From positions 1-25,828 of the IMG/VR virus record IMGVR_UViG_3300017987_000329: 25,828 nt of DNA; one strand, 5' to 3'. The first letter of the stretch is position 1, and the number at the start of each line of letters is the position of its first letter. A model generated the notes under the pieces. It made no database searches. It worked only from the letters and a program-made list of their open reading frames with translations, and was not told the DNA's origin. The DNA comes from a virus. Below are positions 1,560 through 25,828 of the stretch, piece after piece. Position numbers and translations under genes: made by a program.

Positions 1560-2366
1560 CTAGCCCCAGCTGTTCGCTATTCCGCCGCCGAGGTACGTGT
1601 AAGAGCGGGATCCGCCCAGCACATTCCTGTTACTCGTTGAATTGTGATAAACCGCCAGCTGCACATAATCAGTCACCGACGCGAGCCGAAGCCGGCTCAC
1701 CGCGACAATACTGGTGGGATCATCGAGCACGGCCGTCTTCTGCGTGCTCCCTTCCTTGACCACGCTCCCATTCACCAGGAGCACCGCGCGCATAAAGGAA
1801 CCGGCCGCAATGTTCTCCATCTTCACCGCGCCAACAAAGTCGTAGTAACCCTTCACGCCTGGCGTATACTTGTACGTGCTCGTGTCGAACACGTTGCCGG
1901 GGTCATACTGCTGGCTGCTCAATGCCACCACCCGGTACCCGTTCTTCGCAACCGACTGAGTAGCAGCACCTGAAAACGCCTCGAAAACCAGACCATCAGT
2001 ACCGTTCGCCAGGCCCCCACGCGTTGCCAGCTTCGCGTTCGTGAGCTCACCATCGGGGATAGCAGCCACAGGGATAGCATCATCCGCGATCTGATCCGCC
2101 GTGATCGCATCATCCGCGATCTGGTCAGTATCCACCGCATCATCCGCAATCTTCGCACCCGTCACCGCATCATCCGCAAGCTGCGGAGTGTCAATCCCGC
2201 CGGCCTTAACCTGTGCCTTGCCGGAGCCGTCGTCCTCGATCGTTACCTGGTCAAGTGCCCCACTGGACGCCGCGAACAATGCCTCGCGCACCAGGTCACG
2301 CAGATTCGTGTCTGCCTTCAGCCCCGTTGCTCCGATGAAATCATGGCCTGGATCAAAATTCGGCAT
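1560..2366 (-). CDS. Tail-fibre-like protein with 10-residue stalk repeats
   Basis: The predicted product has 268 residues. The ATG at 2366 is preferred because AAGGAG lies 8 bases upstream; an in-frame GTG at 2375 overlaps that site. Residues 60-115 form a stalk of 10-residue repeats with the core IADDAV/IADDAI followed by TxxQI, a pattern typical of trimeric phage fibre shafts. Residues 116-268 form a beta-rich head with aromatic and glycine-rich turns (TYKYTPGVKGYYDFVGAV, RSYTYLGGG) reminiscent of C1q/TNF-like jelly-roll receptor-binding heads. The upstream gene stops one base before this ATG, and the downstream gene overlaps its stop with its own ribosome site. A receptor-contact role is inferred from architecture and position. 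Confidence 0.75.
   Translation of the reverse strand: MPNFDPGHDFIGATGLKADTNLRDLVREALFAASSGALDQVTIEDDGSGKAQVKAGGIDTPQLADDAVTGAKIADDAVDTDQIADDAITADQIADDAIPVAAIPDGELTNAKLATRGGLANGTDGLVFEAFSGAATQSVAKNGYRVVALSSQQYDPGNVFDTSTYKYTPGVKGYYDFVGAVKMENIAAGSFMRAVLLVNGSVVKEGSTQKTAVLDDPTSIVAVSRLRLASVTDYVQLAVYHNSTSNRNVLGGSRSYTYLGGGIANSWG
2077..2196 (-). repeat. 30-bp tandem coding repeat in fibre stalk
   Basis: On the plus strand the core GCATCATCCGC begins at 2077, 2107, 2137 and 2167, an exact 30-bp period. On the minus strand each unit encodes one 10-residue shaft repeat (IADDA-x5). Nucleotide conservation is higher in the core than in the variable half of each unit, consistent with recent duplication under a structural constraint. 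Confidence 0.8.
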
Positions 2367-2367
2367 C

Positions 2368-4272
2368 TCATACACTCCTTACAGCGTGCCGGCGTAGCTG
2401 TGCCGCCACGGCAACACTCTTTATGCGGATCTTGCCGCGGGTATTACGGATCTTCAGTGCGAACGACCGATCCATCGTGAGCCGTCTCAGGAACCGGAAC
2501 GGATGTTCCGCATACATGTTCAGCTGGATCCCGGCCGAGCTCAGATAGAAGTTTCCGCTGTCCGGTATGGCCGTCGCATAGTCCTGTCGGAACGCATCAT
2601 CGTGATCAAGGTTCGCGTTCTCATCGTCCCAATCATCCTTAACAATGTCGTAGGAGGTCGGCGTGAACTCAGTATCCGTGAACAGGGCATGTTCCTCGCG
2701 GAAGTCGGACCCGAGCATCGTGATCGAGATCTTAGAATCCCAATGTTCCAGGATAACTTCACCCCGGCCCATTCTCTTGTTCGACGGATCCTCGTGCCGG
2801 TATTGCCTGGTCACGATATAGGAATCGATATCGAAGACCGTTGACGTCTCCGTGTGCTGTGTCCAGTAGTCCGTATCAGTGGGCAGGTTCCCCTTCGTAT
2901 AGTCAAGGGCCTCATACACCGCCGTCTCACCCGTCTCATACCGGACCATCTCACCAGGGAGATAAAGGGAGCTCCCGTCATACTGCGGGCAATCCCCGAT
3001 AGCATCCTCGCTATCCCACGGATCCCCCGTGAACATTTCCCGGATCAGCCCGTCGTATCCAACGAAATACAGCTTGCTCCCCATCTTCAGGAACTTCTGC
3101 ACGTTCGTCTGCCCGCTCTGCCACAGACCAACCCACGCACCTTGCTCACCCGAGTCCGGATCCATTGCCAGCATGTCATACACGATCATGGCATTGTTCG
3201 TGTCGGACCCGTCGATCGGTACCGCCCAGACCAGGTAATTGTCATACTCGATCGCAGCCACGCCATTCAGAGCCGTTTCACTCGTCCAGTTGATACGATC
3301 GATCAGAGGCTGTATCGGCCACGACAACGGCCGATCGATCCCCTGCAGGTAATTCTCATTGTTCCGCTGCAGACTGTAGATCCCGCCATATCCCAGGTAT
3401 GACACCTGTTCCCCGTGCGCGATCGCACCGTTCCGGCCGACACTCCCACGGTTCCGGTCAACAGTAAGTCGCGTGAGACTCGACCCAAGATTCTGCGCGG
3501 AGATGTTCACCAGGGCAGACACGCTCTTGCGCTTGAAGACGATGATCTTATCGTCATTGTGCGGCAACACCTGCATGATCTCGTCGCCATCACCTGGCGT
3601 GATCGAGAACGTGCCATACACCAGATCCCAATCATTGAAGTCGAGGATGTCACTCGCGCCGATCGTGGACCGGTTACGGTGGGCCCATAGCCGGCCGGCC
3701 GCATACACAGCGCCCCGCGAATTGGGTATCACGTCACCCGTATCCGGCGCCGGCACACTCACGAAGCCCGTATCCGTCCCGTTCCACTGCAGGGGCTCAT
3801 CACTCTCACCCCGCCACATAAACACGTAATCATTCGCCTGTGTGAACGTGATCTCTTCATCCGAGCCAAGCGTCTCCGACACTGCGATCTCTTCAACCAC
3901 GCCGTAATCGTTCTTGTAGACAATCCCATCCTTAACGATCAGCACAGAATCATGATCATCCGTAGACAGCCTGATCTGGCCCACGCCCTGCACCGAGCCC
4001 CATATCGTCTCGGCAAACTGGAACGGGAACCAGAAGCCCGTGTGCGTCGCGTCGTTGTGCCTGGCATTATCCTCATTGAAATAGAACGAAGACTTGTAAC
4101 CGGACGTAACAAAGGCGCGCCGGATCCCGCCACGCGTTTCCGGCCATCCGTTGCGGAACGTCATGTTCAACGCCTCCAGACACTGGTACCTGGTAGGGTC
4201 AATCATGTTCACCCCACCCAGCCACCGTGTCTGACCGTCAAACACTTCATCTCTGTTCTGCGGTTTCGGCAT
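2368..4272 (-). CDS. Large tail/stabilisation protein, beta-propeller-like
   Basis: The gene encodes 634 residues; its ATG abuts the TAA of the preceding gene (TAAATG). The N-terminus (FDGQTRWLGGVNMIDP, then a NxTFRNGWPETRGG turn) matches the start of podovirus tail proteins of the P22 gp10 stabilisation or T7 gp12 nozzle type. Residues 100-410 carry repeated strand-turn modules such as YVFMWRG, AGRLWAHRN, DKIIVFKR, YLVWAVPIDG and KLYFVGYDGLI, as expected for a propeller. Residues 429-471 resemble a small aromatic binding module (PGEMVRY, TAVYEA, GNLPTDTDYW). The last third is beta-rich and ends with a basic tail. The likely role is the central tail hub or nozzle below the adaptor. Assignment rests on pattern and gene order. 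Confidence 0.65.
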   Translation of the reverse strand: MPKPQNRDEVFDGQTRWLGGVNMIDPTRYQCLEALNMTFRNGWPETRGGIRRAFVTSGYKSSFYFNEDNARHNDATHTGFWFPFQFAETIWGSVQGVGQIRLSTDDHDSVLIVKDGIVYKNDYGVVEEIAVSETLGSDEEITFTQANDYVFMWRGESDEPLQWNGTDTGFVSVPAPDTGDVIPNSRGAVYAAGRLWAHRNRSTIGASDILDFNDWDLVYGTFSITPGDGDEIMQVLPHNDDKIIVFKRKSVSALVNISAQNLGSSLTRLTVDRNRGSVGRNGAIAHGEQVSYLGYGGIYSLQRNNENYLQGIDRPLSWPIQPLIDRINWTSETALNGVAAIEYDNYLVWAVPIDGSDTNNAMIVYDMLAMDPDSGEQGAWVGLWQSGQTNVQKFLKMGSKLYFVGYDGLIREMFTGDPWDSEDAIGDCPQYDGSSLYLPGEMVRYETGETAVYEALDYTKGNLPTDTDYWTQHTETSTVFDIDSYIVTRQYRHEDPSNKRMGRGEVILEHWDSKISITMLGSDFREEHALFTDTEFTPTSYDIVKDDWDDENANLDHDDAFRQDYATAIPDSGNFYLSSAGIQLNMYAEHPFRFLRRLTMDRSFALKIRNTRGKIRIKSVAVAAQLRRHAVRSV

Positions 4273-8555: not shown

Positions 8556-10405
8556 GCTTGTGCCCCCAACACCTGGTCAAGTCGCTGCGCGTTCTCTTCA
8601 GCAAGAGCCGCAAGAGCCTTGAGCGTGTCCATCACACCCGCGTCCTGCTCCGTGTTCTGCTGCAACTTCTGCTCCACCTGCTGCAACACCTGGTACACCG
8701 GCAACTGGCCTTGCGGGCCCTCTTCCCCTGCCGTACGCAACCAGCGCATTGCCGCCATCGGATCCCAATGTGAAAGGATATCCATGATCGCGCCGTCAAC
8801 ATCCACCACCACGCCCAGATCCAGCTGTGCCCGCACGAAGTCCCAAGCAGCCATTGCCCGGTTGAACTGCATATCAGGATTCATCGTCTTCGCATTGCCC
8901 GCCGGCACAACAAGCATCGGCACATCGTAGATATCTTCGGGGGCCTCGCCCTGGTACTCGTCACCATCGATCATCGGCAGAGGCTTCCGCATCTGCGCCA
9001 GGTCATCCCAGATCATCTGGAACACGTCAGCCCACGGCTGATTGAACCGGTCAACATCCACCGAGGAAACCGTCGCGCCCCGCGCACTTTCCTCCGCCAC
9101 TTCTGTCGCCGTCTTCTGGATCCCCTTCTTGGAACTCATGTCAGAAGAGAACTCGTATTGGCTCATCGCACCCACACGCCTGGCCGCAACCCGCTTGTGG
9201 TTGTTGATATCGAAATCGAAATTAGCCGGGAACGCCGGCGGCGTCACATACTGCACATTGCCAGGCAGGAAGGATCCCGGCTCATGGCTGATATTCCCAC
9301 TCGGCCGCTCGTCACCCGTCAGCATCGGCTGCTGATAATAGTCGTAGAGCGTCAGCTTCATATTCTGCAGCGCACTCGCCGCAAGCTGATCATCCATGCA
9401 AAGCCGGCCAATACCCCGAGTGTCATAGTACTGCTTCGACCGGTTCTCGAAACGAGGCTGCGAATACGGCCACGGCTTATCCGCGCCCAGCACCACCTCG
9501 GGCTCGTCTTCGGGATCCGCGTCGGGCCCAAGCTCCTGCACCACATCCCGCTCACGCCACGGGAACACCGCAAGAACATCATCAGGGGAATCAGGAGAGA
9601 ATATCGTGCAGCACTTCCGCCCCTTCTTCACACGTCCGCTTCCGTCCTGCTCAACGTCCCACTGCGTCGCGTAGTGCCAATGGGCCCACAACACCAGGCG
9701 CTTCTTCTTCGTGTTCGCCGTCGTCACACCCACCAGGTGTTTCGTCTCTTCAAAAGCATCTGTCACCCCGTGCCCGCCGCCGTCGTCTCGTTTCGAGCGG
9801 AGCGCACGCGTGATAATCACATCCACATTCTTCCACTTCGGATGTCGCTTCGCGTTCGACTTGAACTCACCCTCACTCCATCGGATGATCTCAGTCAGGA
9901 ACCGCGCCTTCTGGATATGCTTCGTATCCGTCGGCACAATCAGGTCACGCGGATCCAGCGCCTCGCACGTCGGGCACAGCCCAAAGCGCGGCACCTCTTC
10001 CCGGTAATTCTTAACCACTGTGAAGCCACGCACGTTCTTCGTGTCACTCGCCTCTTCGATCGTAGCCAGGATCTTAATGACGTGCCGGAGATAAGTATCG
10101 AAGCCCACCTCTGCCTTGGCCTTCTGGTTCGGATCCATTTGAGCCATAGGAATCAGCGTCGCGTAACGCGGCGCGTTGGAGATCATTGCGACCTCCTGGT
10201 TCGTCTTCTCGCGCGTAGTATCGTCCACGATCGGAACAATGAAGTTCGCCGCACCGTTGTACGGCTTCGTCTTCTTCTTCTTCCGCTCACACAGACGCCG
10301 CTTAATGATCTGCGAATCAATGTCCGCCCATTCAGAACGGTTATTGATCGCGTCAACGATCTCTTCTACGTGCGGGTTCTCGATATTTGGACGTTCTTCA
10401 GGCAT
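8552..10405 (-). CDS. Portal protein
   Basis: The predicted product has 617 residues. The ATG at 10405 follows GGGAAGGA; an in-frame upstream start at 10435 would run through the 10425-10465 hairpin. The N-terminus has the portal pattern of a charged helix followed by GAANFIVPIVDDTTREKTN and SNAPRYATLIPMA. A central region with CPTC and tryptophan-rich segments (VLWAHWHYATQW) follows. A helical crown and stem region come next (TATEVAEESARGATVSSVDV), and a Gln-rich C-terminal coiled coil ends the protein (VYQVLQQVEQKLQQN). The length is normal for podovirus portals (about 500-750). It sits upstream of scaffold and coat, as expected. The product would form the dodecameric ring through which DNA is packaged and ejected. 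Confidence 0.8.
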   Translation of the reverse strand: MPEERPNIENPHVEEIVDAINNRSEWADIDSQIIKRRLCERKKKKTKPYNGAANFIVPIVDDTTREKTNQEVAMISNAPRYATLIPMAQMDPNQKAKAEVGFDTYLRHVIKILATIEEASDTKNVRGFTVVKNYREEVPRFGLCPTCEALDPRDLIVPTDTKHIQKARFLTEIIRWSEGEFKSNAKRHPKWKNVDVIITRALRSKRDDGGGHGVTDAFEETKHLVGVTTANTKKKRLVLWAHWHYATQWDVEQDGSGRVKKGRKCCTIFSPDSPDDVLAVFPWRERDVVQELGPDADPEDEPEVVLGADKPWPYSQPRFENRSKQYYDTRGIGRLCMDDQLAASALQNMKLTLYDYYQQPMLTGDERPSGNISHEPGSFLPGNVQYVTPPAFPANFDFDINNHKRVAARRVGAMSQYEFSSDMSSKKGIQKTATEVAEESARGATVSSVDVDRFNQPWADVFQMIWDDLAQMRKPLPMIDGDEYQGEAPEDIYDVPMLVVPAGNAKTMNPDMQFNRAMAAWDFVRAQLDLGVVVDVDGAIMDILSHWDPMAAMRWLRTAGEEGPQGQLPVYQVLQQVEQKLQQNTEQDAGVMDTLKALAALAEENAQRLDQVLGAQA

Positions 10406-11975: not shown

Positions 11976-13493
11976 TCAATCTTCCCATCGGCAACTGGCC
12001 CAGAAGCCAGTACCTTCTTCTCGTTTGTTTGCATCCCTGTGAGCTTGACCAGGCGTAGGGCACCGCGTCAGTGTGCCGGCTTTCCGCTCCGCCTCTTCTA
12101 GCTCTCTCGCCAATGGCGTCATTGAAGACACCAGCATCGCGCACGTATCCAACCGATCGGGACTGCCTTCCCCCCGGTTCCGCCCCTTATCTTTCGGCTC
12201 AAGGCGGATCCGGTTACTGTCGTCGTTCGGCATCTCGTAGCGCCTACGTCTCATCTGCGTTTCCAGTTTGTTATCCTTTGGCATCCGCAGTGCTCCCTGC
12301 GAAAGCCGGAACCGCATCTCAAAATGATCCTCTGCAGCAATACTCTTGAACTGCTTATCGTCGCGCGCCTTGGCATTGTTCGTATAGCGACGGATCCCCA
12401 GCCAGCCCTTGCGCTCCAGGTAGTCAATACACGGCTTCCCCAGGCCACCGTTATCCGCCGTGATATCTTCAGGCTTCACCCCGAGATCCCGAAAGCGATC
12501 GATGAACTTGTCACCCAGCACCGTCGTATCACTTTCCCGGTACACCTCCAGGGGCATGATCTCGTTGCCCACGCGCCACCCAAGCACCTGCTCATCACCA
12601 CCGCCCGAGAACTCCAGCGCAACCTTCACCGGCCCGCGGATCCGGCGGATCAACCCGGCCATAGCGAACCGGACCTTCTCCGTATCATCGAACACATACT
12701 TCGCGCCCTTCCTGAAGAACTTGCCGAACACCCACGACAGGATGTACGGATGATTCTCGCCCAGCCGTGCAATCTCTTCCTGCCGCTCCTTCAACTTGAA
12801 GCCCTCACGCAGATGCGGACAATCGTGCCACCCAATTTCGTGCGCCTTCCACGGATTCCCCCGGGCCTCATGGAAACAATCGTAGAACGGGCCCGTATCC
12901 TCACCAGGCGTAGAAATCACCAGCCACACATCAGGACTACACCTCTGAAACGCGCGGAACATATCATCGTTGTCAAAGCTCTTGGCCTCATCGATGATCA
13001 CCGCCAACGGTGCATACCTGATCACTCCATCCTCATCGCGGTACCAGCGAGAATGAAATCCTTCCGCCGCATCAGGATCCTTTGTCGAGAACGCCTTCCA
13101 GGTAGAGCCCGGCATCCCCCGCACACCTGGTGCCGTGATTTCAAGATCGTCCACGATCCGCCACTTCGGATACCGTCTCAGGCTCTGCTTCAGAACCGGC
13201 CACAGATTCTCTTTGATCTGTCGTTCAACACCCGCCGTGCTCACAACCTGCGCGCCCGGAAACGCCGCCATGAACGACAACCCGAACACCGGCAACAGCA
13301 CCGACGTTTTCCCCGACTCATTTGGAGTCACCACCGACACACGGGCCCCAAGCACCATCAGGTCATACAAGATATCCATCTGCCACTTGTACATCCGCTC
13401 AGGAACCCACATCGACGCCTGGGACACCGGATCCGTGCCCGGCTCCCAAACCAGTTCCCTCGCTTCCCCGCTCGATAACTCCGCCCTACTCAC
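11976..13493 (-). CDS. terL: Terminase large subunit (packaging ATPase-nuclease)
   Basis: The gene encodes 505 residues and starts at a GTG that overlaps the upstream stop (GTGA). The N-terminal ATPase shows Walker A TPNESGKT (56-63), Walker B AVIIDEA (164-170) and a coupling motif ISTPG (193-197). The C-terminal RNase H-like nuclease starts near 289. The first acidic site reads VALEFSGGGDEQV, with Glu294 where most families have Asp. The second is ITADNGGLG (Asp347) and the last is RLDTCAM (Asp449). The protein pumps DNA into the prohead through the portal and cuts the concatemer. The small subunit candidate is not adjacent but at 16456-17241. The C-terminus nearly abuts the HARE-HTH gene. 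Confidence 0.93.
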   Translation of the reverse strand: MSRAELSSGEARELVWEPGTDPVSQASMWVPERMYKWQMDILYDLMVLGARVSVVTPNESGKTSVLLPVFGLSFMAAFPGAQVVSTAGVERQIKENLWPVLKQSLRRYPKWRIVDDLEITAPGVRGMPGSTWKAFSTKDPDAAEGFHSRWYRDEDGVIRYAPLAVIIDEAKSFDNDDMFRAFQRCSPDVWLVISTPGEDTGPFYDCFHEARGNPWKAHEIGWHDCPHLREGFKLKERQEEIARLGENHPYILSWVFGKFFRKGAKYVFDDTEKVRFAMAGLIRRIRGPVKVALEFSGGGDEQVLGWRVGNEIMPLEVYRESDTTVLGDKFIDRFRDLGVKPEDITADNGGLGKPCIDYLERKGWLGIRRYTNNAKARDDKQFKSIAAEDHFEMRFRLSQGALRMPKDNKLETQMRRRRYEMPNDDSNRIRLEPKDKGRNRGEGSPDRLDTCAMLVSSMTPLARELEEAERKAGTLTRCPTPGQAHRDANKREEGTGFWASCRWED

Positions 13494-15274: not shown

Positions 15275-15285
15275 CTCCTAAAACG

Positions 15286-15337
15286 CAAAAAGCGGCGGCA
15301 TCCTGTCCATACATCACATGGACTGAACACCGCCGCT
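15286..15337 (-). terminator. Intrinsic terminator after the ribbon-helix-helix gene
   Basis: On the minus strand AGCGGCGG (15337-15330) pairs with CCGCCGCT (15298-15291), with an inner GTCCAT/ATGGAC stem. Directly after the stem come TTTTTGCGTTTT residues. It lies about 30 bases past the stop of the regulator gene and separates it from the small-gene/terL operon. Confidence 0.8.
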
Positions 15338-15367
15338 CTTGGCAGGTTGCGCTACGCGCTAATCAAA

Positions 15368-15649
15368 TCACTCAGCGTTATCTGCCGCCGAGTCGAACAA
15401 CTCCGGGGTTAAATCACCCGGATCAACATCATCGGGTTCCGTAAGCTCACGCTCACGCTCCGCTGTCGCCTTCTTCATCGCCACCCAGATCTTCTCCCTT
15501 TGCCACTTGGGCAACCTCGACACCTGGCGTTGACGAATCGCCTTCTCGATCTCCTTCGTCCGATCCGAGCCGGCATGTTTCGCTGCCTCGGCCTCAAGAA
15601 ACTCCAGGAGATCAAGAGGGAGACGCACTGAGATTCGATTCGACTTCAC
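15368..15649 (-). CDS. Ribbon-helix-helix transcriptional regulator candidate
   Basis: The product is 93 residues from a GTG at 15649, chosen because GGGAGG lies 9 bases upstream; an in-frame ATG at 15721 has no ribosome site. The opening KSNRISVRLPLDLLEFLEAE is the classic strand-helix start of Arc/MetJ/CopG-type RHH proteins, followed by a second helix with a DRTKEIEKAIRQR turn. The basic segment SRLPKWQREKIWVAMKKA and an acidic tail (about residues 70-93) extend beyond the usual 45-60 residue core. It stands alone between an intrinsic terminator and a 325-bp repeat field, the arrangement of autoregulated RHH repressors. It could control the terL operon, copy number or the late switch. Confidence 0.75.
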   Translation of the reverse strand: MKSNRISVRLPLDLLEFLEAEAAKHAGSDRTKEIEKAIRQRQVSRLPKWQREKIWVAMKKATAERERELTEPDDVDPGDLTPELFDSAADNAE

Positions 15650-15764
15650 AATCTCATCCCTCCCATCTTCACATGCACCTCTCAAAATCCGCCACTTCAC
15701 ATCCACCCTTGGGGGGATCATAGGGGGGTTTTGTTATTATCCCTTTCTTGTCATACTGGCCGTA
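15650..15764 (-). promoter_or_regulatory. Leader of the RHH gene with weak -10-like site
   Basis: The sequence just upstream of the regulator start includes GATAAT on the minus strand (15742-15737). It is preceded by AAAGGG but has no TTGACA-like -35 at 16-18 bases. The first 37-bp repeat starts 22 bases farther upstream, where an activator or autorepressor would sit. Promoter assignment is tentative. Confidence 0.25.
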
Positions 15765-15903
15765 TCGCCAACTGTTCGCCAGCTGACCGCCAACTGTTCG
15801 CGGACATATCTGGTGAAGCCGAGTTGAGGCCGTGCTGACGGGCCTCGAAACCCCTTTCTGATATGTTCGCCAACTGTTCGCCAGCTGACCGCCAACTGTT
15901 CGC
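15765..15903. repeat. Pair of identical 37-bp repeats built from CCAACTGTTCGC
   Basis: Identical 37-bp blocks lie at 15765-15801 and 15867-15903. Each holds two CGCCAACTGTTCGC units separated by CAGCTGAC, so the core CCAACTGTTCGC occurs four times. Outside the blocks, GCGGACATATC (15800-15810) and GATATGTTCGC (15860-15870) form an inverted pair with one mismatch, giving the 140-bp unit partial mirror symmetry. GAGGCC/GGCCTC can form a small hairpin in the middle. No convincing gene covers it. Likely a binding array for the adjacent RHH protein or an initiator. Confidence 0.85.
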
Positions 15904-15928
15904 ACGGCCCTTACTGCAATTGCATTGC

Positions 15929-16089
15929 TGTCCGACACGCACGCCTGTCGGACAAAAGCGCCCAAACCCCTGCTATTAGGCACTTTATGCCCGTGTCCGA
16001 CACGGTTGCATTGCTGTCCGACAAAACAGAGGCATGCCTGTCCGACACGCACGCCTACCTCAGATCCCACGGCCCTGCTCTGTCCGACA
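15929..16089. repeat. Six-copy palindromic operator array TGTCSGACA
   Basis: The 9-bp palindrome TGTCCGACA (or its complement TGTCGGACA) occurs at 15929, 15946, 15994, 16015, 16039 and 16081. Longer shared flanks exist: TTGCATTGCTGTCCGACA appears at 15920 and 16006 (minor edge differences), and CTGTCCGACACGCACGCCT at 15928 and 16038. Start spacings are 17, 48, 21, 24 and 42 bp. No exact copy was noticed elsewhere in the window. The array sits between the small terminase and the RHH gene, and fits an operator set, origin iterons or a packaging recognition site. Confidence 0.85.
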
Positions 16090-16243: not shown

Positions 16244-16455
16244 CTCTATGGCCGATCCGCTCCACCTCGATCACACCACCACCTGGCGCCCGACGAACGC
16301 CGCTGAAATCTCTCCGCGAATGAGTAGACCTAATCGCTGTTATCCGACCTTGGCCCTGATTTTGGGCATATTTCCTAGGAAACTCGGCACTTTCAAAAAA
16401 GTTCATCAAGTTATTTTGGCCCCGAAAAAGGCCAAACCACAATATGTTGTGGTCC
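16244..16455. other. Non-coding gap with tandem palindromes after terS
   Basis: No convincing gene is seen. Immediately past the terS stop lie the near-palindrome CCACAATATGTTGTGG (16437-16452) and the hairpin TTTGGCC/GGCCAAA (16415-16421 with 16430-16436). A T-rich stretch on the minus strand follows after about 15 bases. These may end the terS transcript, but the T-tract is poorly placed. The first palindrome shares its half-site with sequences at 18019-18034 and 21681-21740. Confidence 0.45.
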
Positions 16456-17241
16456 TCACTCATCAGATTGCCTCGAAATCGCCTCAGAATCGCCTGTGAG
16501 CTCCGCCCCTGGTTCACACCCGTTCGGGCCCGCGATCGCCTCAGATTCGCCCTGCTGCCTTCCCTCACGCTCAAGATCTTCCAGCGTCTTGCCCTGCTCC
16601 CGGGCCCGCCTCAGATAGTCACACACGAACACCGGATCAGGATCATTCACATCTCGATCGCGACCGAGCAGCCGTTCACGGGCTCGATCGTACGCTGCTA
16701 TCGCCGCCACACGGTCACGCAGGTTCGGAGCCGTACGAATGACCTCTTCCAGCTGCTCCAGGATGTCCTCGTCCGTCATAGGCCCGCTACGCTTGCCTTT
16801 TCCGCCGGGATCCGGGAGCTCCACCCCGCCACCGCCCTGGGAGATCAACCATTGCAATCGAGAACGGATATCCTCCCGCCGCATCAGCCTACACCCTTGT
16901 TCCTTGGCCGTTTTGCCACTTCTGGTGCCCTTCCGAGGGGGGAAAGCAGCGTTGTATGCAACATCGTTACGCCTGACCTTGAGCCATGTCTGCAAGAATA
17001 GTTCGTGCTGCGCGTTCGGCAAAGGCAGTGAGAAGTCGCCGTCAAACAGGGAACCCTCACTATTCTCGGGGTTAAGCTCCGCATCGACAAGAGCCTCAAC
17101 ATCCGGCGGAGCCGTGCCGTCGGACACTGCAAGCAACTCAGGAACCGATACCCGGTGGAGCGTCATGAAGTCAGCAGCAGCTACGTTCAGCTGCTCCATC
17201 TCGTCGGCCTGTTCGAAGGCATGGACGTCTCTATCACGCAT
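16456..17241 (-). CDS. terS: Putative terminase small subunit
   Basis: The gene encodes 261 residues; its ATG lies two bases after the upstream TAG. Residues 1-70 are acidic and poorly ordered. Residues 70-145 resemble the helix-turn-helix and oligomerisation core of small terminases: LPNAQHELFLQTWLKVRRN, then DVAYNAAF (the usual N-xxxAAxxA pattern) and REDIRSRLQWLI. A Gly/Pro linker and a helical DEDILEQLEEVIRT to AIAAYDRARERLLG segment follow. The tail is acidic. The protein would recognise the packaging site and recruit the large subunit. It is separated from terL by nearly 3 kb. Assignment is moderate because small terminases diverge strongly. Confidence 0.6.
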   Translation of the reverse strand: MRDRDVHAFEQADEMEQLNVAAADFMTLHRVSVPELLAVSDGTAPPDVEALVDAELNPENSEGSLFDGDFSLPLPNAQHELFLQTWLKVRRNDVAYNAAFPPRKGTRSGKTAKEQGCRLMRREDIRSRLQWLISQGGGGVELPDPGGKGKRSGPMTDEDILEQLEEVIRTAPNLRDRVAAIAAYDRARERLLGRDRDVNDPDPVFVCDYLRRAREQGKTLEDLEREGRQQGESEAIAGPNGCEPGAELTGDSEAISRQSDE

Positions 17242-18563: not shown

Positions 18564-19394
18564 ATGCAAGGCTTCATCATTCTCGCGCGCAAGATCCGGG
18601 ACAGTGAGATCTGGACCGACAAACCCGACAGTTGGCTGAAGATCTTTCTGGACCTGATCCTTGAAGCCACCTTTGCCCACGATCACAAGTACCCCCGCGG
18701 ATCCGCGCCGATCTCATGGACTACCGCATCCGGCCGGCTTCCCGGTATCAGCCGGCAAACCTGGAACCGTTGCCTACGCTGGATGGAAGACGAGGGCATG
18801 ATCGAGCGGGACCGGCTCGGTAGACGAATCCTCGTGCACCTCAATAACTACGAGATGTATCAAGATCCCGACTACTACAAGAACACACCCGAGGCGACAA
18901 CCAAACCGCGGCGCCGGCGGAAGCCCCGAGCCCAGGAACCAGAACCGGCCGCGCCCCCGGAAGAATCAGACGATCCCGCTTTCAATATTCTCCAGGCAAG
19001 CGAACACCTGCAACGGCTCACGCTCACACAGTACCAGGCCGCGATCGAGCCCCTCCCCCCGGACTATCCCCTCCTACGCGTAGCCAAGGAGTGTGCACGA
19101 CGCGCGAAGCTGGAAGGACACATCACCAAGCCGGGCCCGTTCGTCTCTGCCTTCTTCCAACGCTGGCACCAGCAGCACGGGCACGAAATCTCTGCGAAGA
19201 AACGCGCGGCCGAGCAGACCAAGGCTCTCTGCCAGGAGTTCTATCAGATCCTCGTGGACAACATGGGAGGCAACGGCGAGAGCAAGGCCGTCCGCGACCG
19301 AGCAGCGAAGCAATACGAAGGCATCATCGGCAAGCGCCTTGTCGCTGAAGTGAAACAGAAGGCCAAGCAAAACTACGAACGGAGACATGGATGA
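18564..19394 (+). CDS. Replication initiator, replisome-organiser-like
   Basis: The gene encodes 276 residues. The N-terminal 105 residues follow the pattern of phage replisome-organiser winged helices: GFIILARKIRDSEIW, then DKPDSWLKIFLDLILEATF, a glycine-initiated strand, and a GISRQTWNRCLRWMEDEGMI helix-wing. Residues 110-145 are a basic then Pro/Glu-rich linker (RRRRKPRAQEPEPAAPPEES). The C-terminal half is helical and Lys/Arg-rich, probably for helicase or loader contact. Its stop overlaps the next start (ATGA). It would bind the phage origin and recruit the replisome; no origin is obvious within the gene. Alternatively it could be only a regulator. Confidence 0.7.
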   Translation: MQGFIILARKIRDSEIWTDKPDSWLKIFLDLILEATFAHDHKYPRGSAPISWTTASGRLPGISRQTWNRCLRWMEDEGMIERDRLGRRILVHLNNYEMYQDPDYYKNTPEATTKPRRRRKPRAQEPEPAAPPEESDDPAFNILQASEHLQRLTLTQYQAAIEPLPPDYPLLRVAKECARRAKLEGHITKPGPFVSAFFQRWHQQHGHEISAKKRAAEQTKALCQEFYQILVDNMGGNGESKAVRDRAAKQYEGIIGKRLVAEVKQKAKQNYERRHG

Positions 19395-20155
19395 AGGTAC
19401 TCTACCGACCCAAGGGACGCGCACAGGAATACAGCCCCCTCGCTGTCAATCTATATAGAGGGTGCCCCCACCGGTGTAAGTACTGCTATGCACCGCTCGT
19501 CCTGAAGAAGTCCGCGGAGTCCCTCGCAATGGTCAGCCCCCGCGCCGGCGTGCTCAAGGATCTCCACGCGGATCTGGCCCGCTTCCGGGAACATAACACC
19601 ATGGCGTTCGGGCCCGTCCTAATGTGCTTCACCTGTGACCCCTACCCCGATATCGAAAAGGATCTACTCGTAACCAAACGCGCGATCGAGCTTCTGAAGC
19701 ACTACGCCTTTCACTTCAAGATCCTGTCGAAACACCCCGCCCTCGCCCTCCGCGATCTCCACCTGTACGGGCCCGGAGACGTGTTCGGCACGTCGCTCAC
19801 ACTTCTCGATCGAGAGGATAGCCGGCGGTGGGAGCCCGGCGCCGACGAACCAGGTGACCGCATACAAGCTCTCAAGGAAGCATACGCCCGCGGCAAGAAC
19901 ACCTGGGTCAGCATGGAACCCGTGCTCGATCCCGAGCAATCCCTTGAGCTCATCCGCATGACACACCCGTACGTGCGGCACTACTCCCTCGGCGTGATCA
20001 ACTATGACCCCATCCGCAAGACCATCGATTGGGGCAAGTACCTCGATGATGCTCGGGCCCTGCTCTACCGGCACGACAAGTCTTTCCAGGTCAAGCGCGA
20101 CCTTGAACGCGCCGCACAACAGACACCGAAAGGACACAGGAACAATGACAACTGA
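19391..20155 (+). CDS. Radical SAM protein, SPL/COG1533-like
   Basis: The gene encodes 254 residues and overlaps the initiator stop (ATGA). The cluster motif is LYRGCPHRCKYCYAP, with C25, C29 and C32 binding a 4Fe-4S cluster that cleaves S-adenosylmethionine. A GxxxxxxTCDPYPDIE segment follows as in the spore-photoproduct-lyase-like group, then FKILSKHP, DVFGTSLTLL and WVSMEPVLDP, which form the rest of the barrel. The length is close to the short phage versions, without C-terminal extensions. In this group the substrates are often nucleic acids or unknown. Position in the replication block suggests DNA repair or base modification, which is inference. It ends overlapping the following small gene by 11 bases. 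Confidence 0.85.
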   Translation: MKVLYRPKGRAQEYSPLAVNLYRGCPHRCKYCYAPLVLKKSAESLAMVSPRAGVLKDLHADLARFREHNTMAFGPVLMCFTCDPYPDIEKDLLVTKRAIELLKHYAFHFKILSKHPALALRDLHLYGPGDVFGTSLTLLDREDSRRWEPGADEPGDRIQALKEAYARGKNTWVSMEPVLDPEQSLELIRMTHPYVRHYSLGVINYDPIRKTIDWGKYLDDARALLYRHDKSFQVKRDLERAAQQTPKGHRNNDN

Positions 20156-20418: not shown

Positions 20419-20730
20419 ATGTACGAGAAGACAGGTTACAAGCTCAACGCCGACGGCACCGCCCTGCTGGCAGAAGTCAAAGGCGGCAAGGATACCGTCC
20501 TCCAGGACGGCGACCTGACCCCGGCAGAAACGCAGCTGAAAGCTCTGCTGCAGGACATCCACGACGGCAGACTCGTCGCGCCCGCAGAAGAGACGACCGC
20601 CGACGACGTTCCCGCGGATCCCGACGGCGGCGAAGGCACTGACGCGGATCCCGACGGTGGCGAAGGCACTGACGCGGATCCCGACGGCGACGCGGACAAG
20701 GACGCGGATCCCGACGGCAAAGAGGAATAG
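20419..20730 (+). CDS. Highly acidic repeat protein
   Basis: The gene encodes 103 residues with AAAGGA before the ATG. The first half is mixed, with a short helix (ETQLKALLQDIHDGR). The second half is a low-complexity acidic tail of ADPDGGEGTD repeats ending in DPDGKEE. About 30 of 103 residues are Asp or Glu. The repeats are encoded by 30-bp DNA units, each carrying GGATCC. Small highly acidic phage proteins can mimic DNA, but this one is probably disordered, so a charge-based binding role is only a possibility. It stands between the 69-residue gene and a GC hairpin. Confidence 0.6.
   Translation: MYEKTGYKLNADGTALLAEVKGGKDTVLQDGDLTPAETQLKALLQDIHDGRLVAPAEETTADDVPADPDGGEGTDADPDGGEGTDADPDGDADKDADPDGKEE
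20611..20720 (+). repeat. 30-bp tandem repeats carrying GGATCC
   Basis: Units begin at 20611, 20641, 20671 and 20701. Each starts (GA)CGCGGATCCCGACGG; the first two continue with nearly identical GGCGAAGGCACT, while the third has diverged and the fourth is partial. They encode the acidic tail of the gene at 20419-20730. Confidence 0.85.
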
Positions 20731-23364: not shown

Positions 23365-25828
23365 TTATTCCAGGCCGAGAGGCACCGGGCCCATTGCTTC
23401 GCGCATCTCTTCGACGTATTCCTCGGTGACCCGGACCACCTCATCCCAATCCTGCCCCATTGCCAGGGCAGTCTGCGCGACGGGGATCATGGCCTGCTGC
23501 ATATCACGCGCAAAGGCGGGATCATCAAAGGCTTCATGGAGCTCACGCCCCATACTCCCGAGCTCATCGATCATGTTCATGGACGTGTGAAGCATCTCCA
23601 GCTGATTCACCTGGACAATCAGCCGCGGATCATGGACCCGTAACCAGGTGCCACCGCCCCGTTGCCGCTCGATCGTTGCCGCGCCCATCTCTACCAGGCG
23701 CCGGCGGACACGTTCATACCTCTGATTCAACGCGGAGACGCTTTGCACGGACGCCGCATTGAAGCCGACCGGATTCCTGATAAAGAGCCGGCCGACAAGC
23801 GGGATATCCGCACGCTCAGGAGCGATCTCCTGCCCGCGCTCCACGCGATCGAGCATCCTGATCACTTCATCGTATTGCCTGGCGAAGCCCTGCCGCACTA
23901 TGTGCTGGATCCGCAACGGCGAATAGTTGAACCACCGGCCTAGTGCCTTGTAGAACTTCGGAGTGTCCAGGTGGGCCCGCTCGGACATCGGCAGATCCTG
24001 TGCTTCCATCCACGGCGAATCAATGTTACGGCCGAAGTAGTAACTCCTGTTATGCGTTGCCTCCACAAAGGCCCGCTGCGTCGGCTGCAGGAAGTCCATC
24101 GGACTACCTGGCAAATCGATCAGCCGCTTCAGCACCTGGTGCGCCGCCTCACGCCTTTGCAGGATCGGCCGGCCCCCGTACATGTGGTCTAAGGTGTTCC
24201 AGACTGTGCTCTCGATCGCACCGAGGGCCCCGTAGTCGAACGGGATCCTGATTCCCTTGATATCCATGTACCCCATACGATCCCAGACCGGCCGCTCACG
24301 TTCCCGCTTCGCGTCGTCCTCATCAGCAATCATCTGCTTGAGTGCCCAGCCGGCCGCGGCGGTCACTGCCACCACCCCCAGCCGATACCATGCCGTCGCC
24401 CTGGTCGCCGGATCCACATCCGAGAGCCGGAGATATTGCCGGTACATAATCTGAAGGCCGGCGTTCGTGAAGCCCAACGGCCGCAAGAGGGCCCGCACCG
24501 ACGAGAAGCCCGAGTGCTCCCCGAAGTTACCCGTCACAGTGTCATAGGCCATACGTGCCGCCTCTGTGCTTTCGCCCTGCCTCTTCTTCCACACAAAGGC
24601 ACCTTCACGGCCGAGTTCCTCACCAAGACCCGAGATGAACTTCCCGCCCGTAATGAAGTTGAGCACATCGACAGGCTTCAGAATCGTGGACATCACCACA
24701 CCAGGTACCGCCGCCGCCTTCTCGGCCGGCGCCAGGCCCCGCCACTTGTCCAGGATGATACCTTCAGACAGCATCCGCGTGAACGCGTTCAGGCGGATCC
24801 GGTGGGCCCCGCTCGTCGTTGTCTCCAGCGTACGCGTAAAGAGCTCTGCAGTCTTCCGCGCTTCCGGGACGCCCTTCTTGCCGGCGATCCGGTTAAGCAA
24901 CCCCGTCAGCAGGTACATACCCTTCAGCTGACCCTCGCGCCCCTCACCCATCAGGACCGCATTGGAAGGATCCCTACTCAACATATTCCCCACGGCGAAC
25001 GGCAGAGTCTGCGTGATCGCCCGCTTCCACGGTTCAGTTACCGGAGTCGCGATCTTATCGATCCACTTCATGAACGCTGCCGGCTCCCTGCTGCCGGCAA
25101 ACATCTGGAACAGGACCGGATCCTCAATCTGCAGGTACACCCGCCGGCCGTCCAGGATAGGAGCAATGATATTCACGCCCCGCGGCGCCGTAGCCCGCCA
25201 CACTGCCTTACCAACAGAATCGAAAGCCACATCCTTTGCCGTCACCGCTTCCCCGATCGGATCCAACGGCCGGCCAAGCTCCTGCTCCATCTTCTGGTTC
25301 AGGTAATCAGCGATAACATCCTTCATCTCTTCTTCACTGAGCGTCGCCATCTTCTTAACGTCCAGCTTCATCGGCACGGCAACCCGCGCCATAGCTGCCC
25401 GCGCTTCAAAGGAGAGGCTCTTATCGTTGCTCGTACGCCTGATAACATCGAGCAGCATCAACGCCGCGCGGTTCTCGTAGTAGGCCCCGATCACTTCCCC
25501 TGTCCGCTTCTGCATGGCATCGAGAATCGGCATCCTGCCCCGCGCACTACCGAACGCACGCCGGAACCCGGCCGACGGGGATCCGCGCCGGCCCCGACCC
25601 GACACCACCTCACGGCCCGCACCAGGCATAGGCGGCAACGGCCAATAGTGTTCGTAGGCTCCGCGGATCCGCTCTGCCTCTTCTTCACTCATGTCACCGC
25701 CCATCACCGCAACCTCAAGTAACGCCTGCATGTAGTCCTGCACGTCCTTGTATGCCTCATCGAACTTCGGCACCGCATCTCGTGCTTCCGCCACGATCTG
25801 CGCCAGGTGTTCCGGCGTCAGCCCGTCA
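23365..25828 (-). CDS. Large polyvalent-type phage protein, LPD38-like (5' end beyond window)
   Basis: The frame is open to the right edge, so more than 820 residues are visible without the true start; a GTG at 25794 is internal in appearance. The C-terminal part resembles the LPD38 domain of polyvalent proteins. After a helical region come DGRRVYLQIEDPVLFQMFAG and then ITQTLPFAVGNMLSRDPSN, matching the family's dP-x-L and NxxRD signatures. Farther on are a likely transmembrane helix (LGVVAVTAAAGWALKQM) and long helical segments. Polyvalent proteins are very large, multi-domain and thought to be injected with the genome to act early in the host. The upstream, unseen part may carry effector domains. 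A virion-internal role is inferred. Confidence 0.7.
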   Translation of the reverse strand, partial: DGLTPEHLAQIVAEARDAVPKFDEAYKDVQDYMQALLEVAVMGGDMSEEEAERIRGAYEHYWPLPPMPGAGREVVSGRGRRGSPSAGFRRAFGSARGRMPILDAMQKRTGEVIGAYYENRAALMLLDVIRRTSNDKSLSFEARAAMARVAVPMKLDVKKMATLSEEEMKDVIADYLNQKMEQELGRPLDPIGEAVTAKDVAFDSVGKAVWRATAPRGVNIIAPILDGRRVYLQIEDPVLFQMFAGSREPAAFMKWIDKIATPVTEPWKRAITQTLPFAVGNMLSRDPSNAVLMGEGREGQLKGMYLLTGLLNRIAGKKGVPEARKTAELFTRTLETTTSGAHRIRLNAFTRMLSEGIILDKWRGLAPAEKAAAVPGVVMSTILKPVDVLNFITGGKFISGLGEELGREGAFVWKKRQGESTEAARMAYDTVTGNFGEHSGFSSVRALLRPLGFTNAGLQIMYRQYLRLSDVDPATRATAWYRLGVVAVTAAAGWALKQMIADEDDAKRERERPVWDRMGYMDIKGIRIPFDYGALGAIESTVWNTLDHMYGGRPILQRREAAHQVLKRLIDLPGSPMDFLQPTQRAFVEATHNRSYYFGRNIDSPWMEAQDLPMSERAHLDTPKFYKALGRWFNYSPLRIQHIVRQGFARQYDEVIRMLDRVERGQEIAPERADIPLVGRLFIRNPVGFNAASVQSVSALNQRYERVRRRLVEMGAATIERQRGGGTWLRVHDPRLIVQVNQLEMLHTSMNMIDELGSMGRELHEAFDDPAFARDMQQAMIPVAQTALAMGQDWDEVVRVTEEYVEEMREAMGPVPLGLE

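Follow-up and report, generated by a model that had tools for sequence, protein, structure and literature searches.

A clustered TGTCSGACA palindrome array beside a ribbon-helix-helix gene in an uncultured tailed phage suggests a recurrent protein-DNA switch

The interval between terS and terL

The DNA analyzed (here called the window) was IMG/VR record IMGVR_UViG_3300017987_000329, positions 1 to 25,828 (25.8 kb), which, judged from its gene content, is a partial genome of an uncultured tailed phage. The minus-strand gene order was found to be terS, about 800 bp without coding signal, a ribbon-helix-helix (RHH) gene, an unusually strong terminator, four small genes (15107 down to 13490), and terL (Table 1). 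A previous sequence-only reading had described the RHH gene and its repeats as a module separating terS from terL; the flanking positions of the two terminase genes were confirmed, but terL is set apart from the RHH gene by the four small genes as well. The strong terminator behind the RHH gene means that this gene does not form one transcription unit with terL. Elsewhere in the window, a gene for a Radical SAM protein (Pfam Radical_SAM, above the cut-off) was located at 19391-20155, right behind the DnaD/O-like loader gene; 30-bp tandem repeats in a gene for a small protein (20419-20730) encode an acidic DPDGGEGTDA repeat; and an LPD38 domain was detected in an 809-amino-acid protein (23365-25794) close to the contig end.

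Table 1. Features of the window and their coordinates
Feature	Position	Strand	Details
terL, terminase large subunit	11976..13493	-	phrog_2, E 1.4e-20; ~29% identity to Akkermansia phage TerL
Intrinsic terminator of RHH gene	15283..15345	-	fold -39 kcal/mol, z -7.5, TTTTT tail
RHH protein gene	15368..15649	-	93 aa, GTG start, N-terminal strand motif NRISVRL; from translation, Pfam, codon score
37-bp repeat, copy A	15765..15801		11-bp tandem; two GCCAACTGTTCGC pseudo-palindromes 22 bp apart
Inverted repeat GAGGCC-N9-GGCCTC	15826..15846		between the 37-bp repeats; weak fold, z -1.9
37-bp repeat, copy B	15867..15903		100% identical to copy A
Palindrome 1, TGTCCGACA	15929..15937		exact TGTCSGACA
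Palindrome 2, TGTCGGACA	15946..15954		exact TGTCSGACA
Weak promoter-like site ATGCAA-18-TAAAGT	16011-15982	-	palindrome 3 in spacer
Palindrome 3, TGTCCGACA	15994..16002		inside spacer of weak minus-strand promoter-like site
Palindrome 4, TGTCCGACA	16015..16023		exact TGTCSGACA
Palindrome 5, TGTCCGACA	16039..16047		exact TGTCSGACA
Palindrome 6, TGTCCGACA	16081..16089		adjoins plus-strand promoter-like site
Promoter-like site TTGCAA-17-TATACA	from 16091	+	abuts palindrome 6
Joint AT-richest 60-mer of window	16359..16418		67% AT
Best minus-strand promoter-like site of region, TTGAAA-17-AAATAT	16396-16368	-	within AT-rich 60-mer, upstream of array
Terminator-like double hairpin after terS	16405..16456	-	-18.5 kcal/mol, z -3.9
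terS, terminase small subunit	16456..17241	-	phrog_51, E 1e-4
DnaD/O-like loader gene	18564-19394	opposite to RHH gene	

The RHH open reading frame, with a codon score of +0.34 bits/codon compared with -0.26 for the overlapping open frame across the intergenic region, is a genuine gene, and the earlier description of it as carrying its own terminator was borne out. Residues 5 to 41 of the product matched Pfam RHH_5 (E 1.7e-4) and RHH_1 (E 1.8e-3), both below the curated cut-offs; these sub-threshold but consistent matches, together with the positive codon score, place the predicted protein in the RHH class. Helices were predicted at residues 12 to 24 and 29 to 39 with low confidence, whereas the monomer model, predicted from the single sequence and of poor quality (pLDDT 65), did not resolve the strand and found no match in a fold search. 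A PDB profile search returned a weak RHH match only, to the antitoxin Rv0298 (E 0.04). A toxin-antitoxin pair found no support within this fragment: the 88-amino-acid downstream neighbor had no family match, the upstream neighbor is TerS, and the RHH gene ends in a terminator of its own.

All six exact TGTCSGACA sites of the 25.8-kb window fall in a single cluster, 280 to 440 bp upstream of the RHH start, so that any action of a TGTCSGACA-binding protein within the window would be local. This exact cluster accompanies an RHH gene whose strand has the form [KR]-x-[STD]-x-R. In dinucleotide-shuffled versions of the window, exact sites averaged 0.27, with at most 2 inside any 170 bp, and for any 9-bp palindrome the maximum recurrence within 170 bp was 2 in 200 shuffles, against the 6 observed. 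Likewise, shuffling the intergenic region produced no exact repeat longer than 14 bp, against the 37 bp observed. The two identical 37-bp repeats and six palindromes previously noted within 325 bp therefore both stand far above shuffled sequence. The gene had also been placed directly downstream of this region; it is downstream, but 115 bp separate the two.

Each 37-mer is internally an 11-bp tandem of about 3.4 units, and its GCCAACTGTTCGC pseudo-palindromes are absent from the rest of the window. Matches of 7/9 to the TGTCSGACA box at 11-bp steps occur only within the 37-mers, which can be read from their letters as 11-bp phased degenerate copies of the box. Because the 37-mer is itself an 11-bp tandem, this phase is explicable by one chance match, the chance of which we roughly estimate at a few percent. 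Elsewhere, degenerate boxes differ mainly at the outer positions. Given that both repeat families may represent the same box, the earlier suggestion that they imply at least two binding proteins is unproven. Two further explanations of the region were discarded. Coding repeats do not account for it, as the intergenic open frame scores like a spurious ORF and the palindromes lie in different frames, and an RNA element was rejected, with no Rfam match and no tRNA found.

TGTCSGACA arrays in other phages

No homologue of the RHH protein, TerS, or the loader was found in viral contigs, genomes, or phage and plasmid records, and the closest relative of any window protein searched (RHH, TerL, TerS, loader) was a TerL at ~30% identity. 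A 21-mer from the 37-bp repeat gave no match in a sequence search. As no close relative of the phage was found, 2.9 million viral contigs were searched by palindrome array instead of by homology, with a first scan for three TGTCSGACA sites with both gaps of 3 to 33 and a second with one gap of 34 to 64. The two scans yielded 50 loci with clustered TGTCSGACA. Many were DNA coding for peptide repeats, with site spacings divisible by three within long ORFs, and the remainder represented about 14 other lineages with non-coding arrays, the lineages being counted by eye from neighbors and sequence.

At or beside the array, 8 of the ~14 non-coding lineages (L043/L066, L046/L092, L085/L088, the L044 group, L056, L082, L083, and the L086-L099 group) carry an RHH-type gene whose strand fits [KR]-x-[STD]-x-R, a motif that was partly defined after the first matches and to which D was added later because of one group. 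The second scan contributed six new non-coding lineages, three of which have the motif when D is left out and four when it is included. The form [KR]-x-[ST]-x-R is frequent among RHH proteins, and thus the motif alone is no proof of specificity. Near random positions of the same loci, the strict motif occurred at 3.5%. When the scrambled palindrome TCTGSCAGA was searched with the first-scan pattern as a control, eight loci were recovered, with one non-coding lineage and zero strict-motif matches. Non-coding TCTGSCAGA palindrome arrays, with no RHH motif nearby, were seen in the related phages L223 (1646-1847), L224, and L225.

RHH identity had profile support in L044 (phrog_7325, CopG-like) and L096 (phrog_7906, Arc-like) and weak profile support in L083 (RHH_1) and L082 (MobC_2). 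The RHH domains of the other lineages were ~16 to 25% identical to that of the window. Since the lineages are unlike in GC content, neighbors, and RHH sequence, common descent of the whole locus does not explain the pairing. About six lineages (L047/L049, L058, L070, L073, L089, and L090, the last at a contig edge) had a non-coding array but showed no RHH gene. The proposed link between the RHH gene and the palindrome array is thus supported by RHH genes beside the same array in other phages; conservation of the array in phages with the same RHH gene, which had been named as a test, was seen at the level of RHH-type genes, although no close homologues were found.

Location in the terminase/portal region recurred in two or three lineages. 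The order in L043/L066 (TerS-like gene, array, RHH, TerL) is the same as in the window, with TerS-like genes in other loci being assigned by position or layout and mutual similarity, without profile matches. In L046/L092, the array and RHH gene are followed by a possible HNH gene, small genes, TerL, and portal, and in L088 by a large unidentified gene and portal. By sequence reading, the palindromes of four loci lie at the likely promoter of the RHH gene itself: inside the spacer in L066 (TTGACA-17-TAGACT) and L043 (TTGTGC-17-TATACT), overlapping the -10 in L056, and flanking the promoter in L046. Within the L066/L043/L075 TerL family, palindrome and RHH domain vary together. L066 has TGTCSGACA; L043 has TGTATATACA ahead of one RHH gene and TGTCSGACA ahead of an operon with a second; and L075 has seven TGTACGTACA palindromes (upstream 100-310), the last within a likely promoter spacer, before a fused double RHH gene (310-618) directly ahead of terL. 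The L043 terL (1788-4022) is interrupted by an intein-like Hint domain.

A different layout was observed in L044 (1245-1817), where the array lies inside a gene with an RHH N terminus (phrog_7325) and an initiator-like C terminus (phrog_270, DnaD-like), followed by DnaB. Such fusions with an internal array were also found in L045, L051, L054, L055, L059, and L068. The L044 group is a possible RHH-based phage origin, resembling in its organization the lambda O type, with iterons in the initiator gene; the DNA-binding part is RHH and not the O N-terminal domain. The window has no such fusion: no initiator domain was found in its 93-amino-acid RHH protein, and the array lies outside the gene. In L070, the array is inside an O-like initiator gene, and in L073 and L089 it lies beside primase-like genes. 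The L089 array region (9400-9560) also carries a second, GTTCGGAGATCTCCGAAC-like palindrome family.

A scan of genomes for the array gave, among the matches listed, mostly tandem coding or repeat DNA; also among them was the archaeal genome L166, with an array 23 bp before an RHH gene. A large recombinase-like gene with three TGTCCGACA sites next to it was present in Pseudomonas elements (L148, 930-1292 and 1941-1997; L105, 856-912), and L148 had a MobC-type RHH gene with a KISIRI strand ~650 bp from the array. In Pedosphaera assemblies (L106, L117, L120, L139, L156, L159, and L172), a four-site TGTCSGACA element with spacings of 23/21/51 occurred in several places, often near contig ends, and resembled a dispersed repeat.

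Proposed autorepression and other possible uses of the array

The RHH protein of the window phage is predicted to bind the TGTCSGACA palindromes, and we regard this step as likely. Binding would probably involve one RHH dimer per 9-bp box, in the manner of MetJ- and Arc-type proteins, whose boxes are short and palindromic or sub-palindromic. The array would then be the control region of the RHH gene's own transcription unit, insulated by terminators on both sides. Accumulating protein would cover the array and perhaps spread across the 11-bp phased 37-bp repeats towards its own gene, shutting off leftward transcription into it. Such spreading from strong to degenerate sites, modeled on AvtR and SvtR, would allow the array to silence a start that lies farther downstream; the 11-bp phasing of the 37-mers is compatible with this but is not proof. 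We infer binding, dimer stoichiometry, spreading, and repression in the window phage, as well as the use of the array, be it autorepression, an origin, or a packaging site. For the explanation as a whole (binding, control of the own unit, and autorepression), we give a probability of about 0.5, and whether autorepression is the main use of the array stands at roughly even odds. Against it, the array of the window is 280 to 440 bp away from the RHH start, and no convincing sigma-70 promoter overlaps its palindromes (best minus-strand score, 5.8 bits), unlike in L066, L043, and L046; the array could therefore be more than a simple operator. Candidate promoters are TTGAAA-17-AAATAT, upstream of the array, and the weak ATGCAA-18-TAAAGT, whose spacer holds palindrome 3.

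Several known systems resemble this arrangement in part. Arc and Mnt of P22 (immI region) are likewise small phage RHH proteins with short operators beside their own genes, and the L086-L099 group is also Arc-like, with an antirepressor-like gene nearby. The P22 boxes differ, however, and in the window six scattered boxes and the pair of 37-bp repeats are situated between terminase genes; an antirepressor gene was not seen there. RHH dimers of the CopG/MetJ/Omega type bind several adjacent short boxes cooperatively, but those boxes differ from TGTCSGACA in sequence and size. CopG and MetJ have T or S as the strand residue that follows [ST]-x, whereas the window protein has R. SvtR and AvtR are RHH autorepressors of archaeal viruses; AvtR protects ~100 nt, spreading from strong to degenerate sites has been proposed for both proteins, and SvtR acts also on a structural gene promoter (PMC5569661). 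AvtR has two fused RHH motifs, as does L075 (PMC5569661). Both differ from the present case in belonging to archaeal viruses, with other consensus sites and no TGTCSGACA box. MobC of plasmid RA3 is an RHH autorepressor with a palindrome between -35 and -10 (PMC4175270), the palindrome layout of L066 and L043, but it has a single imperfect palindrome, a conjugation function, and another sequence.

Use of the array as an RHH-bound replication origin, with iterons and an AT-rich opening region helping to load phage replication proteins, appears fairly unlikely in the window but, given the L044 group and the AT-rich stretch near the array, is a serious alternative. The internal arrays of the L044 group with DnaB directly next, the array in the O-like initiator gene of L070, and those next to the primase-like genes of L073 and L089 argue for it, as do, in the window, a DnaD-like loader and the joint AT-richest 60-mer at a distance of 270 bp. 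However, that loader is 2.5 kb off and on the opposite strand, the AT-rich stretch overlaps both the terS terminator and a promoter-like site, the RHH protein is without an initiator domain, and in most other lineages the array is at the RHH promoter and not at replication genes. GC skew, proposed earlier as a check, has no turn at the array region of this fragment contig. A packaging site (pac or cosB) bound by TerS, comprising the 37-bp repeats or the whole region and leaving only the TGTCSGACA boxes to the RHH neighbor, is quite doubtful. Helically phased repeats close to terminase genes are a usual feature of cosB and pac sites, and the repeats here lie between terS and terL with their pseudo-palindromes 22 bp apart and confined to the 37-mers. 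Nonetheless, arrays lie away from terminase genes in the L044 group, L056, and L082, and neither a genome end nor terminal redundancy is visible in the fragment contig.

It is improbable that the arrays are bound by a host or other phage protein and adjoin RHH genes by chance. RHH genes are common in phages, ~6 array lineages lack a visible one, and RHH binding is a prediction; yet the frequency of RHH-type genes beside non-coding arrays against that at random positions, their absence beside the scrambled palindrome, and the covariation of palindrome and RHH in the L066/L043/L075 family all speak against coincidence. The partition-like system suggested by the sequence-only reading, in which the array would be a centromere and the RHH protein a ParG/Omega/ParR-like adaptor of a plasmid prophage, is highly improbable. 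An RHH protein with an array near its own gene is the parFG-type and omega layout, and there is a precedent in a Bacillus plasmid-prophage, where an RHH gene lies downstream of parM (PMC6669507). The genes adjoining the window RHH gene, however, are terminase-region genes with no motor gene, and no ParA/ParM-like protein was found among the scanned window proteins, which is weak evidence in a fragment.

A possible shared box for phage RHH proteins

The occurrence of a TGTCSGACA array paired with an RHH gene in several phage lineages suggests, at the level of sequence, a recurrent protein-DNA switch. No description of such a switch was found in the literature searched, in which neither TGTCGGACA nor TGTCCGACA occurred as a whole word. 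More tentatively, and at somewhat less than an even chance, TGTCSGACA may be a widespread box of one phage RHH class ([KR]-x-[STD]-x-R), present in unrelated phages, perhaps in archaea too, and put to various uses: for operon control in the terminase region, for antirepressor control, and for origin marking by RHH-initiator fusions. If so, RHH proteins too diverged for reliable recognition by sequence would share one DNA box, and this box could serve to identify phage regulators and pair them up in genomes that lack annotation. The strand residues would provide a testable recognition code, with TGTCSGACA, TGTACGTACA, and TGTATATACA paired with different RHH domains in one family. It would also suggest dedicated transcriptional control in the terminase region, as well as RHH-based replication origins.
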